A stretch of 64,000 nucleotides of DNA from Modestobacter sp. DSM 44400 (GTDB taxonomy: Bacteria > Actinomycetota > Actinomycetes > Mycobacteriales > Geodermatophilaceae). The position numbers and the translations under genes were made by a program. Under the pieces are notes generated by a model, which saw only the letters and a program-made list of their open reading frames with translations, was not told where the DNA came from and made no database searches. The stretch is from contig NZ_FNOZ01000002.1 in the NCBI RefSeq assembly GCF_900107175.1, positions 124,001 to 188,000 of the forward strand. The letters are read 5' to 3'. Below are positions 44,932 through 52,375 of the stretch, in pieces (position 1 is the first letter of the stretch; each line of letters begins with the position of its first letter).

Positions 44932-45047
44932 GGTGCGGGCACCGACGAACCCGGTGGCTACCGTGCCGTCCGTGACCGAGCTCGCGAGGTCACGCGAAGA
45001 CACAGCACCCTGGGCGCGTGCCCGACGAGCGCGAGCGAGAAGGACAC

Positions 45048-45456
45048 GTGACCAGCACCCGACCGGACTGGCTGCCGGCCGACGCGTTGAGCCCACTGGA
45101 CGACAAGCTCGGCATCCGGATCACCGACTTCGATGCCGACCGGTTGGTCGCGACCATGCCCGTCGCCGGCAACGAACAGCCCTTCGGCCCGCTGCACGGC
45201 GGCGCGACCTGCGCGCTGGTCGAGACCATCGGCTCCTGGGCGGCGATGCTGCACGCCGGACCGGGGGGGTTCGGTCGTGGGCATCGAGCTGAACGCCAGC
45301 TACCTGCGCGCCGCGACCACCGGGGTGGTCACCGCGGTGTGCACCCCCGCCCGCCGGGGCCGGACGCTGGCCGCCTTCCACGTGGAGGTCAGCGACGAGC
45401 AGGGCCGGGCCACCGCCACCGCCCGGCCGACCTGCATGCTGCGCCGCGCCCGCTGA
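45048..45456 (+). pseudogene. PaaI-type (hotdog) thioesterase gene with a frameshift
   Basis: The first frame encodes DKLGIRITDFDADRLVATMP and GPLHGGATCALVETIGSWAA, the hotdog core with the HGG motif. After a run of seven G at 45263..45269 followed by TT, the family sequence resumes one base later as VVGIELNASYLRAATTGVVT to TCMLRRAR, stopping at 45456. Removing a single T restores a 135-aa protein. GTG 45048 has AAGGA at a good distance. So this is a single-base frameshift next to a homopolymer: recent mutation, sequencing error or, less likely, programmed slippage. Divergent from polA. Confidence 0.8.
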
Positions 45457-45665
45457 ACCGGAGCCTGCCGGTCGTCGGGCCGGAGGTCGCCGGGCTGAAG
45501 GTCGCCGGGCTGGACTGCGCGCCGCCCCTGGCGGCGCGCCGGGACCGTCCGTCGTCGCCGGTTCACACCGGCGTGTCGCAGATGGGTCACGGTGTGTTCT
45601 TCACGGCCCGCTGTCGTCGGCACCGTGGGTTACTGTCCCGGCTCAACCAACGGCTGGGAGGTCGA

Positions 45666-47039
45666 GTGACCCACGCGCCACACCGTGCCCGTCGGCATGG
45701 TCGACGCACCACGACCGGGCAGCTGCTCGCGGCTGACCGGCCGGCTCCCGGCCGGTCGGGCCGCCGGCGCACCGGTCGGCGTCCGCTCGTCCTCAGCCTG
45801 CTCCTCGCCGCCTTCGCCATCGCCCTGGCCACCCTCGTCCCCGGCGTCGCCAACGCCGCTGGGGAGTCGGTCACCGGAACGCTGCAGACCAGCCGCAGCG
45901 GTCCGATCGAGGGCGTCCAGGTGACGGTGGAGACCGCCGCCGGCGCCGAGGTCGACTCGGCCGAGACCGACGCGGACGGACGCTTCGCCATCGACGTCCC
46001 GGGCCCCGGTGAGTACACCGTCACACTCAATGCCGGCGACCTGCCCGACGCCGTCCAGCTCGGGACCAACGGTGACACGGTCACCGTGACGGTCGGCCCG
46101 GGCCGGACCCAGCCGGTGCTCTTCGGCCTGGTCGACGGCAGCGCCAACTCCGGTGGCGGCACCATTCGAGCGGTCCAGCTGCTCGTCGACGGACTGCGGT
46201 TCGGGTTGCTGATAGCGATCTCCGCGGTCGGCCTGTCGTTGATCTTCGGCACCACCGGCCTGGTGAACTTCGCGCACGGCGAGCTGGTCACCATCGGCGC
46301 CATCATCGCGTGGTACGTCAACGTCCGCCTCGGAGTTCCGCTGATCCCGGCCGCGATCATCGCCATGGTCGGCGGAGGAGTGGTCGGTGCGCTCAACGAG
46401 CTGGGCATCTGGCGGCCGCTGCGTCGCCGCGGCACCGGCCTGGTCGCCGCGCTGGTCGTGTCCATCGGCCTCTCGCTGGTACTGCGGTACGGCATTCAGA
46501 TCGTCTACGGCGGGTCGTCCAACCCTTACGGCGACTACCAGAGCCAGCGGGCGGTCTCCTACGGGGTCTTCACGATGACCAACCGGTCGCTGGCCTCGAT
46601 CATCATCTCGATCGTCGTGCTGCTGCTGGTCGCACTCATGCTGCAGCGGACCAGGATCGGCAAGGCGATGCGCGCGGTGTCGGACAACCGGGACCTGGCC
46701 GCCTCTTCGGGCATCGACGTCAACCGGGTCATCCTGTTCGTCTGGGTGATGGGCGGGGCGCTGGCCACCCTGGGCGGCGTCCTGCTCGGCCTGTCGGACC
46801 AGGTGCAGTGGGACATGGGATTCCGGCTGCTCCTGCTGATGTTCGCCGGGGTCACCCTGGGCGGTCTCGGCACCGCCTATGGGGCCCTGGTCGGCAGCGT
46901 CATCGTCGGTGTGTTCGTCCAGATGTCGACGCTCGTCATTCCGGACGACATGAAGTACGTCGGAGGGCTGTTCCTCTTGATCGTCATCCTCGTCATCCGC
47001 CCCCAGGGGATCCTGGGCAGCCGGGCCCGGATCGGCTGA
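45666..47039 (+). CDS. livH: Branched-chain amino-acid ABC permease LivH with an N-terminal secreted beta-sandwich domain
   Basis: The 457-aa protein has a signal-like hydrophobic segment (residues about 37-63), then a carboxypeptidase-regulatory/Ig-like domain (ESVTGTLQTSRSGPIEGVQV, TDADGRFAIDVPGPGEYTVT) of about 90 residues, then the LivH permease with GLSLIFGTTGLVNFAHGELV and LAASSGIDVNRVILFVWVMG. Ordinary LivH proteins (about 290-300 aa) lack the first 150 residues. GTG 45666 is supported by GGGAGG 4 nt upstream. It heads livHMGF. A 209-nt spacer precedes it. The thioesterase frameshift leaves no stop between the genes, but the two are not one protein. Confidence 0.9.
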   Translation: MTHAPHRARRHGRRTTTGQLLAADRPAPGRSGRRRTGRRPLVLSLLLAAFAIALATLVPGVANAAGESVTGTLQTSRSGPIEGVQVTVETAAGAEVDSAETDADGRFAIDVPGPGEYTVTLNAGDLPDAVQLGTNGDTVTVTVGPGRTQPVLFGLVDGSANSGGGTIRAVQLLVDGLRFGLLIAISAVGLSLIFGTTGLVNFAHGELVTIGAIIAWYVNVRLGVPLIPAAIIAMVGGGVVGALNELGIWRPLRRRGTGLVAALVVSIGLSLVLRYGIQIVYGGSSNPYGDYQSQRAVSYGVFTMTNRSLASIIISIVVLLLVALMLQRTRIGKAMRAVSDNRDLAASSGIDVNRVILFVWVMGGALATLGGVLLGLSDQVQWDMGFRLLLLMFAGVTLGGLGTAYGALVGSVIVGVFVQMSTLVIPDDMKYVGGLFLLIVILVIRPQGILGSRARIG

Positions 47040-47044
47040 CCGCG

Positions 47045-48043
47045 ATGTCGGACCTCCTCAACGCGTTCGCGATCGCCGGAAAGGCGTTCTTCGGTTTCCA
47101 GGCGATCTTCTTCGCACTCCTCGCCGTCGGCCTCAACGTCCACTTCGGCTACACGGGCCTGCTGAACTTCGGGCAGATCGCCTTCGCCATGGTGGGCGGG
47201 TTCGGCATCGCCATCTCGGTGAGCCAGTGGGGATTGCCGTTCTGGGTCGGCGTGCTGGTCGGCATCCTGGCCGCCGTCGTCCTGGCCCTGCTGCTGGGCC
47301 TGCCCACGCTGCGGCTGCGCGCCGACTACCTGGCGATCGTCACTATCGCCATGTCCGAGGGACTGCGCCTGGTCTTCCGGTCGGTGTCGGCAACGCCGGT
47401 CACCGGCGGCACCCGTGGGCTGTCGGCGTTCAACGGCGACTTCATCGCACTGGCACCCTGGGACACCCAGCACCGCTACCACATCCTGGGCACGACGTGG
47501 AGCGGCGGAGAGCTGTGGGTGGCGCTGGTCGGCTGGGTGCTGGTGACGCTGTTCAGCCTGCTCGTCTGGCAGCTCATGCGCAGTCCCTGGGGCCGGGTGG
47601 TCAAGGCCATCCGGGAGGACGAGGACGCGGTCCGCGCGCTGGGCAAGAACGTCTACGCCTACAAGATGCAGGCGCTGGTGCTGGGTGGAGTGATCGGCGC
47701 CTTCGGAGGCATGGTCTACGCGGTCAACACCGGCTCGGCCATCCCGGACCAGTACCAGAGCGCCAACACCTTCCTGGCCTACGCCGCACTCATCCTCGGC
47801 GGAGCCGCCCGGGTGCTCGGCCCGGTCATCGGATCGATGATCCTGCTGTTCATCCTCCAGTTCGCCGACACCGGTCTGCGAGCGATGATCTCCAACGGCG
47901 TGATCCCGTCGGAACTGCTGTCCTCGACCGACGTGGCGCAGATCCGCTTCGTCCTCGTCGGGATCGGGCTCATGCTGTTGCTGGTCTTCCGGCCCCAGGG
48001 GATCTTCGGTGACCGACGAGAGGTGATGCTCGATGCCCGCTGA
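47045..48043 (+). CDS. livM: Branched-chain amino-acid ABC permease LivM
   Basis: The 332-aa membrane protein has the LivM signature LNVHFGYTGLLNFGQIAFAM, GLPTLRLRADYLAIVTIAMS, and the EAA-like loop RSPWGRVVKAIREDEDAVRA for contact with the ATPases. About eight membrane helices are present. It pairs with LivH to form the channel. ATG 47045 lies 5 nt after the livH stop. The 3' end overlaps livG by 11 nt. Confidence 0.95.
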   Translation: MSDLLNAFAIAGKAFFGFQAIFFALLAVGLNVHFGYTGLLNFGQIAFAMVGGFGIAISVSQWGLPFWVGVLVGILAAVVLALLLGLPTLRLRADYLAIVTIAMSEGLRLVFRSVSATPVTGGTRGLSAFNGDFIALAPWDTQHRYHILGTTWSGGELWVALVGWVLVTLFSLLVWQLMRSPWGRVVKAIREDEDAVRALGKNVYAYKMQALVLGGVIGAFGGMVYAVNTGSAIPDQYQSANTFLAYAALILGGAARVLGPVIGSMILLFILQFADTGLRAMISNGVIPSELLSSTDVAQIRFVLVGIGLMLLLVFRPQGIFGDRREVMLDAR

Positions 48044-49082
48044 GCCCGCGGCCCATGGCGCGCACGCGGCACGGCCCGACGAACCGCCCGCCGGCTCCGC
48101 ACCGGCTTCCGCCGGTACGGAGAAAGCCGCTCCGCGGCGGCTGGCGCAGGCAGCCCTGCGCGACCTTCCCTGGGAGATCGGGGTCGCCAAGCCCGACCCG
48201 ACGGTCGTCGTCGACGGGGTCACCCGCACCTTCGGTGGTCTGACCGCCGTGTCGGTCGACCACCTGGAGATCCAGCGCGGCGGCATCACCGGGCTGATCG
48301 GGCCCAACGGCGCCGGCAAGACCACGTTGTTCAACCTGCTCACCGGTTTCGACCAGCCCGACACCGGCACCTGGTCGTTCGACGGCCGGTCACTGGGCAA
48401 GCTGTCGCCGCACCAGGTGGCCCGGCTCGGGGTCGTGCGCACCTTCCAGCTCACCAAGGCGCTGTCCCGGCTCACCGTGCTGCAGAACATGCTGCTGGGC
48501 GCTCAGGGACAGCGGGGCGAGAGCTTCCTGCGCGCACTGGTCCCCGGTACCTGGCGACGCCAGGAGACCGAGAACACCGAGAAGGCGATGGAGCTGCTAC
48601 AGCGCTTCAAGCTGGATGCCAAGTCGGACGACTTCGCCGGCATTCTCTCCGGTGGTCAGCGCAAGCTGCTGGAGATGGCCCGGGCCCTGATGAGCGACCC
48701 GCAGGTCGTCATGCTCGACGAGCCGATGGCCGGGGTCAACCCTGCGCTGACGCAGAGCCTGCTCGGGCACGTCAAGGACCTCCGTGAGGAGGGCATGACG
48801 GTGATCTTCGTCGAGCACGACATGGACGTCGTGCGCGACATCAGCGACTGGGTCGTGGTCATGGCCGCCGGCCGGATCATCGCCGAGGGGCCGCCGGAAT
48901 CGATCAGCCAGAACAAGGCGGTCGTCGACGCCTATCTCGGCGCCCACCACGACGCGCCGCTGACGGTCGACGACGAGGACCGGGTGCTCGCCGAGGCCGA
49001 GGCCTCGATCGCCCGCGAGGGCCACCCGGACCAGGGCGTCATCAGCTCCGACCGACCCCATCCGAGAAGGACGGACCGATGA
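48033..49082 (+). CDS. livG: Branched-chain amino-acid ABC ATP-binding protein LivG
   Basis: The 349-aa ATPase has Walker A (LIGPNGAGKTTLFNLLTG), the signature loop LSGGQRKLLEMARAL, Walker B (QVVMLDEPMAGVNP) and the switch His in VIFVEHDMD. An N-terminal extension of about 60 residues, Ala/Pro-rich, and a C-terminal acidic tail make it longer than usual LivG (about 255). ATG 48033 overlaps livM by 11 nt; GAGGTG lies 7 nt upstream. Confidence 0.95.
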   Translation: MPAEPAAHGAHAARPDEPPAGSAPASAGTEKAAPRRLAQAALRDLPWEIGVAKPDPTVVVDGVTRTFGGLTAVSVDHLEIQRGGITGLIGPNGAGKTTLFNLLTGFDQPDTGTWSFDGRSLGKLSPHQVARLGVVRTFQLTKALSRLTVLQNMLLGAQGQRGESFLRALVPGTWRRQETENTEKAMELLQRFKLDAKSDDFAGILSGGQRKLLEMARALMSDPQVVMLDEPMAGVNPALTQSLLGHVKDLREEGMTVIFVEHDMDVVRDISDWVVVMAAGRIIAEGPPESISQNKAVVDAYLGAHHDAPLTVDDEDRVLAEAEASIAREGHPDQGVISSDRPHPRRTDR

Positions 49083-49957
49083 GCACTCTGGACGACCCGG
49101 CCAGCGAAGACCCCATGTTCCAGCGGGACTCCGGGCAGGGTCCGGCGACGGAAGGCGGCCCGGCAGAGCCGGCCGCCGAGCTCTCCCCCGCCGAGAAGGC
49201 AGCCACCCGCCAGGAGCACGTCCGCCTCGCCGAGGGCGCGCTGGTGCGTGCCGATGACCTGGTCGCCGGCTACGTGCCCGGGGTCGACATCCTGCGCGGA
49301 TGTGACTTCTACCTGCAGGACGGCGAGCTGGTCGGGATCATCGGCCCCAATGGGGCCGGCAAGTCCACCCTGCTCAAGGCGCTGTTCGGGCTCATCCCGG
49401 TGCGCTCCGGTGCGGTGACGCTGCGCGGGGAGGACATCACCTCTGCGCCGGCGCACCGACTGGTCTCTCTGGGCGTCGGGTACGTGCCGCAGAACAACAA
49501 CGTGTTCCCCTCCCTCACCATCGAGGAGAACATGCAGATGGGGGTCTACCTGCGGCCCAAGACGTTCAAGGAGCGCTTCGACTACGTCATCGACCTCTTC
49601 CCGCTGTTGGGGGAACGCCGCAAGGGTAAGGCCGGGTCGCTCTCCGGCGGCGAGCGGCAGATGGTGGCGATGGGTCGGGCCCTGATGATGGAGCCGTCGG
49701 TGCTGCTCCTCGACGAGCCGTCCGCGGGCCTGTCGCCGGCCTATCAGGACGAGGTGTTCATCCGTTGCCGCCGGATCAACGCCACAGGGGTCTCGATCAT
49801 CATGGTGGAGCAGAACGCCCGCCGGTGCCTGCAGATCTGCGACCGGGGTTATGTGCTCGACCAGGGCCGCAACGCTTACACCGACACCGGCCGGTCGCTC
49901 ATGAACGACCCGAAGGTCATCGAGCTCTATCTGGGCACGCTGGCGAAGGCGCAGTAA
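49079..49957 (+). CDS. livF: Branched-chain amino-acid ABC ATP-binding protein LivF
   Basis: The 292-aa ATPase has Walker A (IIGPNGAGKSTLLKALFG), YVPQNNNVFPSLTIEENMQM, signature LSGGERQMVAMGRAL and Walker B (VLLLDEPSAGLSP). An N-terminal extension of about 50 residues is acidic and Pro/Ala-rich. ATG 49079 overlaps the livG stop (ATGA). It is the last gene of the operon and faces the binding-protein gene across a shared terminator. Confidence 0.95.
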   Translation: MSTLDDPASEDPMFQRDSGQGPATEGGPAEPAAELSPAEKAATRQEHVRLAEGALVRADDLVAGYVPGVDILRGCDFYLQDGELVGIIGPNGAGKSTLLKALFGLIPVRSGAVTLRGEDITSAPAHRLVSLGVGYVPQNNNVFPSLTIEENMQMGVYLRPKTFKERFDYVIDLFPLLGERRKGKAGSLSGGERQMVAMGRALMMEPSVLLLDEPSAGLSPAYQDEVFIRCRRINATGVSIIMVEQNARRCLQICDRGYVLDQGRNAYTDTGRSLMNDPKVIELYLGTLAKAQ

Positions 49958-50057: not shown

Positions 50058-51395
50058 TCAGCGCTGGGGGCCGACTCCCTGTGCGTTGAGGCTCTGGATG
50101 ATCCGCGAGGACTCCTCGAAACCGATGACCACGATGGCGTCCGGGTTGAACTGGGCCATCTGCTGCACCTCGGAGTCGAAGTTGGCCGCCTGCGGGTCGT
50201 AGATCACGGTCTTCACCGACTCCTCGGGCAGACCGTCGGCGACCAGGTTGTTCTTGAGGTTCTCGGCCAGCCCGGTGCCGTAGGGGTCGTTGAGCGCCAG
50301 GATCCCGACGGTGTTGTTGCCGTCCTGCTCGATGAGGTCGGCCAGTGCCCGGGCCTGCAGGACGTCCGGGGGCGCGGTGCGGAAGTACAGCCCCTTGTCG
50401 TCGTAGGTCGTGAACTGGTCGGAGGTGTTTGCCGGGGAGAACTCCAGGACACCGGCGCCGGTGATCTTGTTGATCACGGTCAGGCTCACCCCGGAGGACG
50501 CCGCACCGATGATCGCGTTCACCCCCTGCTGCAGCTCACGGTCGACCGTCTGGCTGGCGGTGTCGGTGGAGGCGTCGCCGGAGTCACCCTCGACCAGCTG
50601 CACCGGGTTGCCCAGCACTCCACCGGCGGCGTTGATGTCCTGGATGGCCAGCTGGGACCCGGCGACCTCGGGTGGGCCGAGGAAGGCCAGGTTGCCGGTC
50701 AGCGGCAGCAGCGTCCCGATCACCAACGGCGCGCCCGTCGTCCCGGGGGCGGCCGGCGCCGGACCCTCGTTGCTGGCCGCGTTCGCCTCGTCCCCGGCGA
50801 TGACGAACTCGGTCTTCGAGTCGTCGATCGTGTTGTCCATGCCGAACTGCTCGATGCCGAAGCTCGCCTGCGCCGGCTCGCCCGGCTCCGAGAAGCTCAG
50901 CGGACCGCTGACGCCGTCGTAGTCCGGGTTCCCCCCGTTCGCGATGATCTTCATGCAATCGGCGAAGCTCGTGCAGGTCTCGCCGCCGAAGGTCACGCCA
51001 TTGACGTAAGGCCCGAAGACGGTGGCCTGGTTGCTGCCGGCCAGCTGAGCGGCGAGTGCCGTCGTGACGATCGCGTCGTACGTCTCACCGGCGTAGTTGA
51101 AGTCCTTCAACTCGGGGTTGATCGTCTTCAGGCGGTCCTTGAAGTCGCCCGACAGGTCGGTGAGCGGCAGCGTGCCCTTCATGCCGGCGAGCGAGCCCTG
51201 CTGGTCGAAGTCCTCGCCGAGCGCGTTGCCCATGTTCCCGTCGACGCCGTAGACGTTGACCTGCTTCTCAGCGCTCGCGTCGCTGCTGCTGCTGCTGCCG
51301 GCGTCGCTGCCCGAGTCGCTGCCGCCGCAGGCGGTCAGCGCGAGCAGGGCGGTCCCGGAGACTGCGACCGCGCGGGCGAAGGTGCCATTGCGCAT
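50058..51395 (-). CDS. livJ: Branched-chain amino-acid ABC substrate-binding lipoprotein, apparently circularly permuted
   Basis: The 445-aa protein has a lipoprotein signal (ALLALTAC, Cys23) and a Ser/Gly/Asp linker. Residues about 45-202 (VNVYGVDGNMGNALGEDFDQ, GETYDAIVTTALAAQLAGSN, DYDGVSGPLSFSEPGEPAQA) correspond to the C-terminal half of LivJ-type proteins. A linker (about 203-222) leads to residues 223-445, which are the normal N-terminal half (LVIGTLLPLTGNLAFLGPPE, INAAGGVLGNPVQLVEGD, YFRTAPPDVLQARALADLIE), ending SLNAQGVGPQR exactly where the first segment would continue. So all parts are present but in swapped order. ATG 51395 has GGGAG at 7 nt. Its position facing livHMGF makes it the likely partner. 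The order is seen directly; that the protein folds normally is inference. Confidence 0.88.
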   Translation of the reverse strand: MRNGTFARAVAVSGTALLALTACGGSDSGSDAGSSSSSDASAEKQVNVYGVDGNMGNALGEDFDQQGSLAGMKGTLPLTDLSGDFKDRLKTINPELKDFNYAGETYDAIVTTALAAQLAGSNQATVFGPYVNGVTFGGETCTSFADCMKIIANGGNPDYDGVSGPLSFSEPGEPAQASFGIEQFGMDNTIDDSKTEFVIAGDEANAASNEGPAPAAPGTTGAPLVIGTLLPLTGNLAFLGPPEVAGSQLAIQDINAAGGVLGNPVQLVEGDSGDASTDTASQTVDRELQQGVNAIIGAASSGVSLTVINKITGAGVLEFSPANTSDQFTTYDDKGLYFRTAPPDVLQARALADLIEQDGNNTVGILALNDPYGTGLAENLKNNLVADGLPEESVKTVIYDPQAANFDSEVQQMAQFNPDAIVVIGFEESSRIIQSLNAQGVGPQR

Positions 51396-51656: not shown

Positions 51657-52244
51657 CTACGAGTCGGCGGTCTGGGTGTCCAGGATCGCCTGGGCCAGTG
51701 CCTTCATCGACGTCCGCTCGTTCATCGCGGTGCGCTGGATCCAGCGGAACGCCTCGGCCTCGGTCATGCCCCGCTCGCTCATCAGCCGGCCCTTGGCCTG
51801 TTCGACGACCTTGCGGGCATCCAGGCGCTCCTTGAGGTCGCCGACCTCCGCGTCCAGCGCGGTCATCTCCAGGAACCGGCCGCGGGCCACCTCGATGGCG
51901 GGCACCAGGTCGTTCTTGGAGAACGGCTTGACCAGGTAGGCCATCGCCCCGGCGTCGCGGGCCCGCTCGACCAGCTCACGCTGGCTGAAGGCGGTCAGCA
52001 CGATCACCGGCGCGATGCGCGCGGCGGCGATCTGCTCGGCGGCGGAGATGCCGTCGAGGACCGGCATCTGGACGTCGAGGATGACGAGGTCCGGGCGCAG
52101 CGCCGTCGCCTGCTCGACGGCGGCCTGACCGTCGCCGACCTCGGCCACGACGACGTACCCCTCCTCCTCCAGCATCTCCTTGAGGTCGAGGCGGATGAGA
52201 GCCTCGTCTTCGGCGATGAGAACACGGATCGGCTCGCTGCTCAC
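51657..52244 (-). CDS. pdtaR: ANTAR-domain response regulator PdtaR
   Basis: The 195-aa protein has a receiver domain (IRVLIAEDEALIRLDLKEML, phospho-acceptor Asp in VILDVQMPVLDG, Lys in YLVKPFSKND) followed by a coiled coil and an ANTAR RNA-binding domain (EQAKGRLMSERGMTEAEAFR). It corresponds to mycobacterial Rv1626, which acts in transcription antitermination. Its kinase PdtaS is not in the window. GTG 52244 follows TAGGCT by 7 nt without a ribosome-binding site. Divergent from a tRNA gene. Confidence 0.94.
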   Translation of the reverse strand: MSSEPIRVLIAEDEALIRLDLKEMLEEEGYVVVAEVGDGQAAVEQATALRPDLVILDVQMPVLDGISAAEQIAAARIAPVIVLTAFSQRELVERARDAGAMAYLVKPFSKNDLVPAIEVARGRFLEMTALDAEVGDLKERLDARKVVEQAKGRLMSERGMTEAEAFRWIQRTAMNERTSMKALAQAILDTQTADS

Positions 52245-52251
52245 GGGGCAG

Positions 52252-52257
52252 AGCCTA
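52252..52257 (-). promoter_or_regulatory. Candidate -10 element for a leaderless pdtaR transcript
   Basis: TAGGCT on the minus strand ends 7 nt before GTG 52244; no Shine-Dalgarno is present in between. Confidence 0.4.
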
Positions 52258-52301
52258 GCGACTGAAGGGCGCGGCCCACCTGCCGATAGTCTGACCGGCG
52301 A

Positions 52302-52375
52302 GCCCCCGTACCCCAATCGGCAGAGGGAGCGGATTCAAAACCCGCGCAGTGTGCGTTCGAGTCGCACCGGGGGCA
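52302..52375 (+). tRNA. tRNA with anticodon CAA (nominally Leu), short variable arm
   Basis: The 74-nt fold has acceptor GCCCCCG/CGGGGGC, D-arm CCC/GGG, anticodon loop TTCAAAA within GCGGA/CCCGC (the last pair is an A-C mismatch), a 5-nt variable region GCAGT and T-arm GTGCG/CGCAC with TTCGAGT. Discriminator A; CCA not encoded. Bacterial tRNA-Leu normally has a long variable arm, which is missing here, so the amino-acid identity is inferred from the anticodon only. Confidence 0.85.

Follow-up and report, generated by a model that had tools for sequence, protein, structure and literature searches.

The closest described case of a binding protein with naturally rearranged order is Tp0684 (TpMglB-2) of Treponema pallidum, a permuted type I binding lipoprotein of solved structure, for which its authors propose a type Ic (cluster Bc; PMC4990184). 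They also raise a possible link of the permutation to membrane anchoring, and they allow that the moved part, with only 13% identity, may have originated from another gene (PMC4990184). Binding proteins of the HAAT/LivJ type usually carry their N-terminal half first. Here we report a livK gene in a stretch of 64,000 nucleotides from Modestobacter sp. DSM 44400 (contig NZ_FNOZ01000002.1, positions 124,001 to 188,000; "the window") in which this order is reversed. The original prediction had placed the gene at the correct coordinates but left its strand unstated. Its parts are as follows:

50058..51395, minus strand: permuted livK, a circularly permuted solute-binding lipoprotein of 445 residues (open reading frame, Pfam and family survey)
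51327..51395, minus strand: putative signal peptide with lipobox L-T-A-C (Cys23), read by eye
51264..51326, minus strand: spacer rich in Ser, Gly and Asp, residues 24-44 (sequence; low predicted local distance difference test (pLDDT) values in the model)
50790..51263, minus strand: half B, residues 45-202, the C-terminal half of a normal LivK (matches to normal-order homologues)
50730..50789, minus strand: linker, residues 203-222, leading from the old C-terminus to the old N-terminus (alignment and linker comparison)
50058..50729, minus strand: half A, residues 223-445 and stop, the N-terminal half of a normal LivK (Pfam, homologues and structure matches)

Taken as a whole, we consider it highly probable that this gene encodes a permuted binding lipoprotein of a LivHMGF importer which originated by duplication, that such permutations were repeated events, and that the fold has been kept.

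The order of the two halves

The reading frame starts with ATG at 51395 and ends with TGA (50060-50058); an alternative GTG start is open 13 codons upstream of the ATG and leads to a reading of 458 residues. In the native order the Pfam family Peripla_BP_6 covers only residues 224-443 (237-456 of the longer reading), which correspond to positions 2-217 of the 343 in the profile, and for half B by itself Pfam returns nothing significant (best E 0.071). Rotation of the same residues to the normal order lengthens the match to profile positions 2-299 and gives it a score of 127.8 bits, compared with 116.9 bits in the native order (cut-off 31.7). The best sequence match of the rotated protein in the PDB, the LivJ-type structure 4gnr, crosses the rejoined point (query 5-298, chain 10-300). 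A normal-order paralogue in the window genome aligns to the protein in swapped order, first with residues 218-457 and then with residues 59-198. Ten homologous loci were compared: five are permuted (L038-L042) and five have the normal order (L043-L047), and all five of the latter match livK in swapped order, the best of them with E values of 2e-85 and 9e-45 for the two halves. The identities of the halves to the normal-order gene at L043 are 65% and 53%.

Five tests of order thus bear out the assignment of residues 45-202 to the usual C-terminal half and of residues 223-445 to the usual N-terminal half, and the alignment to Peripla_BP_6 that had been proposed as a check is in keeping with the swapped order, not with a normal co-linear match. 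The claim that nothing is missing and only the order is changed also stands, as the rotated residues fill the profile range given above and normal homologues match both halves. The halves rejoin as had been claimed, yet the spacing was put too short: two residues were expected between the GP turn and the (V/L)Y of the following strand, and the normal relatives with a GP turn that we examined have four to five. One consequence for annotation is that domain searches in native order detect only half of such a permuted protein. In a scan of NCBIfam all matches lie far under their cut-offs (best 61 of 477 bits). The window genome also contains, on contig C150, the normal-order livK paralogue L071, with halves 46% and 40% identical to those of the permuted protein; it is preceded by a livHMGF set of its own that is transcribed the same way.

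The lipoprotein signal and the 20-residue linker are both present, as predicted. Cys23 of the lipobox is invariant in six out of six alignment rows, which is consistent with export and lipid anchoring of the product. The folded part of half B begins at Q45-V46 (QVNVYGVDGN). The ratio of nonsynonymous to synonymous substitution rates (dN/dS) was calculated in nine comparisons and lies at 0.24-0.40 for half A, 0.24-0.62 for half B and 0.19-1.16 for signal peptide and spacer. For the linker it lies at 0.12-0.25 in eight of the nine, a rough value because the linker has only 20 codons; the synonymous sites of the ninth are saturated. These codon ratios show purifying selection on both halves and on the linker, which does not behave as a free tether.

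Occurrence of the permuted order and number of origins

A search of the window's family for the same order, likewise proposed with the original prediction, found matches at 1e-10 in 99 out of 112 genomes, with 13 genomes lacking a match. One uninterrupted full-length permuted match is present in 92 of the 112, only fragments in three, and only distant matches in four. The best full-length matches show 59-82% identity, the window's own being excluded. An additional full-length permuted copy that has diverged is present in six genomes, namely G076, G079, G083 and G084 of genus g9 (e.g. locus L072), where it shows 64-71% identity, as well as G034 and G069.

The permuted order also occurs in other lineages, which are given here by our own family codes. 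At the level of the order, a search of 397 genomes gave 178 matches at 1e-40. Family f16 has a single full-length permuted match in 67 of its 77 matching genomes, as has one genome of f13; of the ten f16 genomes that remain, three were examined and have the normal order, which was also found in seven out of seven loci fetched from f8. A single match that continues through the linker is present in 11 out of 40 matching genomes at the class level and in six out of 19 at the phylum level. In f41 matches occur in 67 out of 130 genomes, nine of them permuted; in f81 in 87 out of 150, with one match through the linker in 51; in f68 in 20 out of 35, two of them permuted. In f49, 65 out of 85 genomes match and 11 are permuted, all from genus g168 and one of them cut by a contig end; a twelfth genome, G1356, has half A only. 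Both orders are thus found within f16, f41, f49, f68 and f81. A plasmid collection contributed three matching records. The permuted form is therefore widespread in the window's family, present elsewhere and of more than one origin, which the original prediction had missed.

We distinguish five groups of permuted genes: P1 (window family, f13 and f16), P2 (f49 and f39), P3 (f41), P4 (f81 and f122) and P5 (f68). In P1 to P3 the cut is common: it falls between a turn that reads G-h-G-P in most cases and the motif h-Y-h-x-D-G-N. In P4 and P5 it lies approximately 22 residues later, so that the protein ends e.g. with VYGVDGNIGNALGENFDAGK and the folded part starts near L-x-G-M/V-K/R-G-T. The linkers are alike within P1 and differ among the groups. 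By eye, several permuted f41 linkers end with GDG followed by LTVG, as do the spacers of normal f41 genes, and the linker of G161 resembles a spacer of f15; both are likenesses between low-complexity segments. At L197 (G1184, f81) two permuted livK copies stand in tandem, about 200 bases apart.

To count origins, trees were built from proteins rotated to the normal order, and topologies were compared by the approximately unbiased (AU) test. Before trees and counts were made, L002 was removed as the same gene as L071, and L003-L008 and L093-L116 were removed as duplicates or distant paralogues. The first trees had only 11 rows of the window's family. The long branches L071 and L134 are present in a 75-row quick tree and were excluded from the 73-row and 89-row trees. 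The 89-row set is without L085, L137, L162, L167, L180 and L195, the window family, f16, f41 and f81 are subsampled in it, and loci fetched later are absent from it.

The quick tree shows five order changes, three of them forced. In the 73-row tree there are six, of which starred branches force four; in the 89-row tree there are five, all of them forced. A single origin appears in none of the 200 bootstrap trees for the 73-row and 89-row sets, and the AU test rules out all permuted rows as one clade (p 0.0002 and p 2e-10). With the 89-row set P1+P2 (p 2.5e-13), P1+P3 (p 4e-5) and P2+P3 (p 5.9e-5) are each rejected as a clade, the last with nine P3 rows and the normal f41 rows included. P1+P4+P5 is rejected with p 0.007 in one test and 0.02 in another. 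Trees of half A and of half B each nest P3 in the main clade of normal f41 genes, with supports of 100/99 and 98/88, respectively; the normal f41 gene L081 stands outside this clade in both, and two normal genes mix with P3 in the tree of half B. We conclude from these trees that the first cut site arose independently in permuted livK at least three times; a fourth origin, at the second cut site, is very probable.

Several results weigh against this count. P2+P3 is unrejected (0.22) in the 73-row set, which has one P3 row. P1+P4 is formally unrejected (p 0.061), the differing cut site being the sole further argument for their separation. P4+P5 is borderline, with 0.033 in the 73-row and 0.28 in the 89-row set, and because of the latter value P5 was not counted as a separate origin. 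P1 as one clade is unrejected (0.27 and 0.56), and the long branch of f16 may join the window clade. The permuted genes of f39 and f49, united in the 73-row and 89-row trees, stand apart in a tree of 33 rows that includes the copy of G1352 (f49), a long branch. One must further keep in mind that an order change on a tree may be a gain or a reversal, and that the groups for the AU test were chosen after the trees had been seen.

The livK locus and a probable route of origin

The neighbours of livK in the window are:

45018..47039, plus strand: livH frame with permease residues 389-657 and a CarboxypepD_reg-like domain, residues 284-360 (Pfam; true start inside the frame)
46310..48043, plus strand: livM frame with permease residues 263-523 (Pfam; true start inside the frame)
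48033..49082, plus strand: livG, ATPase of the ATP-binding cassette (ABC) type with BCA_ABC_TP_C tail (Pfam)
49079..49957, plus strand: livF, ABC ATPase, convergent with livK (Pfam)
51657..52316, minus strand: response regulator like pdtaR (receiver and ANTAR domain), upstream of livK (Pfam)

We take pdtaR to be the appropriate name for such a receiver-ANTAR regulator. The convergent genes livK and livF are separated by about 100 bases. Many actinobacterial families have the arrangement of pdtaR, livK and convergent livF-livG-livM-livH, often with pyk further upstream, around permuted and normal livK alike. For f39, f81 and f122 the convergent livF is present and pdtaR was not found in the stretch examined. 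Among 36 permuted loci of the window family, 31 have both pdtaR and convergent livF, four have pdtaR only and one has neither. In a second set of five such loci, which may overlap with the first, four have both and one has pdtaR only; the counts include some genomes twice. The one locus with neither neighbour is most likely that of L072, the sole second copy examined, which lacks both a neighbouring livF and an upstream pdtaR of its own orientation. Since permuted and normal livK share the same surroundings, the permuted gene occupies the place of the normal one.

Upstream of livH, at about 45018-45456 on the plus strand, we noticed a gene which by eye resembles a hotdog thioesterase (Pfam weak, E 0.09-0.1). 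It seems to switch frame near 45280, through a sequence error or a real break: its start lies in the frame of ORF (open reading frame) 45018-47039 and its end in ORF 45133-45456.

The original prediction suggested a tandem duplication after which the outer halves were lost. This route would comprise three steps. First, livK would have been duplicated in tandem at this locus. The tandem copies would then have become joined, and finally half A of the first copy and half B of the second would have been lost, leaving signal peptide, B, linker and A. Such a change would have happened in at least three lineages separately, with a fourth very probable, and in three of them the cut lies before the VDGN strand. 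The route would pass through tandem normal copies and through a permuted copy beside a normal one, and both states are found. Head-to-tail tandem copies of normal livK occupy this locus in G1125 (f41, genus g183), in G555 and G718 (f31) and in G1377 and G1373 (f49), at loci L198, L199, L200, L243 and L246; genus g183 also includes three permuted genomes. In G1352 (f49, g168) the order is pdtaR, permuted copy (B-A), normal copy (A-B) and convergent livF. In the same genus G1353 has the normal copy alone at the locus, and others, e.g. G1357, the permuted copy alone. An unrooted combined tree places the permuted G1352 copy and three permuted g168 genes on one side of a branch and the remaining 29 rows on the other, with supports of 96/95; the supports are 90/80 in the tree of half A, and half B groups the four with 88/48. 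These observations suggest tandem duplication with loss of the outer halves as the best supported origin.

What weighs against this route is that the pair of permuted and normal copy is known from one draft genome only, with a very divergent permuted copy on a long branch, and the series of states is for this reason suggestive without being a pedigree. A fused A-B-A-B intermediate in one frame was not seen, although no systematic search for it was made.

Among the alternatives, one ancient permutation followed by horizontal transfer, or by retention beside normal copies with patchy loss, fares best, though we think it unlikely. It would account for the patchy distribution and for the five families with both orders, and it could appeal to the unrejected clades P1+P4 and, in the smaller set, P2+P3. 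Against these stand the rejection of the single clade at 2e-10 and of each pair among P1, P2 and P3 in the 89-row set, the existence of two cut sites, and the nesting of both halves in the main f41 clade. In another alternative a permuted architecture would have been transferred and then overwritten by gene conversion with the local normal copy, leaving local letters in a foreign order. Permuted and normal copies can stand side by side, as such a process would need; but the conversion would have to be nearly complete in both halves and yet spare the linkers, which differ among the groups. The check for mosaics consists of the separate trees of A and B, and we rate this explanation somewhat lower still.

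A fusion of two different genes, each supplying half a binding protein, is very improbable. The halves do differ in their identity to L043, but both match the same normal-order genes, and half A is more conserved within the permuted window family too (e.g. 86% against 70% for L038), so half B simply changes faster. The half trees made for f41 also agree with each other. A misjoin in assembly or an annotation artefact of a single genome, for which one could only cite the draft state of the window genome, with its 182 contigs, is practically excluded because the same order runs uninterrupted through the independent assemblies of 92 family genomes and L038-L042.

Compared with duplication and outer-half loss alone, a wider proposal is tentative, and we would rather doubt it than rely on it: the livK-livFGMH locus of Actinomycetota might be a hot spot with at least four permutations in two neighbouring loops that flank the strand of the acidic residue clamping the ligand, its precursor and transition states still living, and selection might favour moving the anchor from lobe 1 to lobe 2, e.g. 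for docking to an exported domain of LivH. The recurrence at one cut suggests that this site is tolerant or favoured.

Anchor, function and comparison with described systems

An AlphaFold2 model, made with an alignment supplemented by half-segments of L043-L047, is confident for residues 43-445 and has pLDDT values below 50 for residues 1-42. Model residues 222-444 match LivJ structures. The two-lobed fold and its ligand cleft have probably been kept, a possibility that the original prediction had raised for the fold. The cut aligns to residues 222/223 of LIVBP (HMMER), in a loop as predicted, with a helix on one side and a strand on the other; together with the domain limits that we take to apply to LIVBP, this alignment would place the new termini in lobe 2. 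The lipid anchor, attached in the normal order at the fold's first strand, would then sit on lobe 2, close to D52, the proposed equivalent of Glu226 in LIVBP, which presumably contacts the ammonium group of the ligand. Such a relocation would change how the protein hangs from the membrane.

In the window family the partners LivHMGF adjoin the gene, and permuted LivK probably still feeds LivHM. Most likely it serves the LivHMGF importer encoded next to it as a lipid-anchored binding protein, with branched-chain or similar amino acids as ligands. The CarboxypepD_reg-like domain, a beta-sandwich, precedes the LivH permease of the window (Pfam E 2.6e-9), and by eye a similar segment stands upstream of LivH in 26 out of 26 loci examined, whether livK is normal or permuted. 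It is a candidate docking part for the binding protein.

Some observations speak against this picture of fold and function. With six close rows only, AlphaFold2 gave a pLDDT of 37 and the model was discarded. The ranges from Foldseek and VIA-align cover the second part only (model residues 219-445), so that the structure matches speak for half A and the retention of the whole fold draws on model confidence. HMMER aligns Tyr49 with Glu226 of LIVBP, and the equation with D52 needs a shift of three residues. Finally, nine out of nine permuted f16 loci examined (L053-L061) have no liv genes nearby. A neighbouring importer is thus not the partner of all permuted LivK proteins, and those of f16 may have another one. 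Within 15 kb of permuted livK, L054, L055 and L056 of this family have a gene which by eye resembles valine or leucine dehydrogenases, and at L058 a thioesterase-like gene adjoins it.

Permuted livK shares with Tp0684 that it is natural, lipid-anchored, of type I and of permuted topology. Tp0684 is reported to bind ligand and change conformation despite its permutation (PMC4990184). It differs in belonging to the glucose/galactose family, in having the first three strands of its N lobe moved to the C-terminus, and in possessing a fourth hinge crossing and a large insertion. In permuted livK the cut is another one, in what would be lobe 2, the whole N-terminal half stands at the C-terminus, both halves are clearly homologous to normal genes, and the permutation recurs with probable intermediates. 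Rotated livK reaches 17.2 bits against Peripla_BP_4 (cut-off 35.1), and no MglB is among the 60 of 111 PDB matches listed; none of these 60 runs from half A through the linker to half B. The absence of Tp0684 from the structure matches listed is uninformative. In the literature searched, which lay mostly outside subscription journals and of which part of the matches was covered, we found no report of a permuted LivK.

With LivJ and LivK of Escherichia coli (LIVBP; HAAT family, Peripla_BP_6) the protein shares homology to both halves once rotated, the lipoprotein signal and the livHMGF neighbours; these proteins differ in their normal half order and in where on the fold the anchor is attached. 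DNA methyltransferases underwent several independent circular permutations within one family. They are alike in the repeated natural permutation of one protein family and differ in their unrelated fold and in being soluble enzymes.

To our knowledge, natural circular permutations are mostly traced to one old event of which no intermediate steps survive. At the livK locus a single orthologous gene is found in normal, tandem, permuted-beside-normal and permuted-alone states, some of them within one genus, and both the duplication route and the question of neutral or selected change become directly testable. For the design of sensors the family is a source of binding proteins that are permuted by nature. 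One such protein was already known with Tp0684; what is new is the permutation in the LivK family, and what is surprising is its recurrence with probable surviving intermediates.
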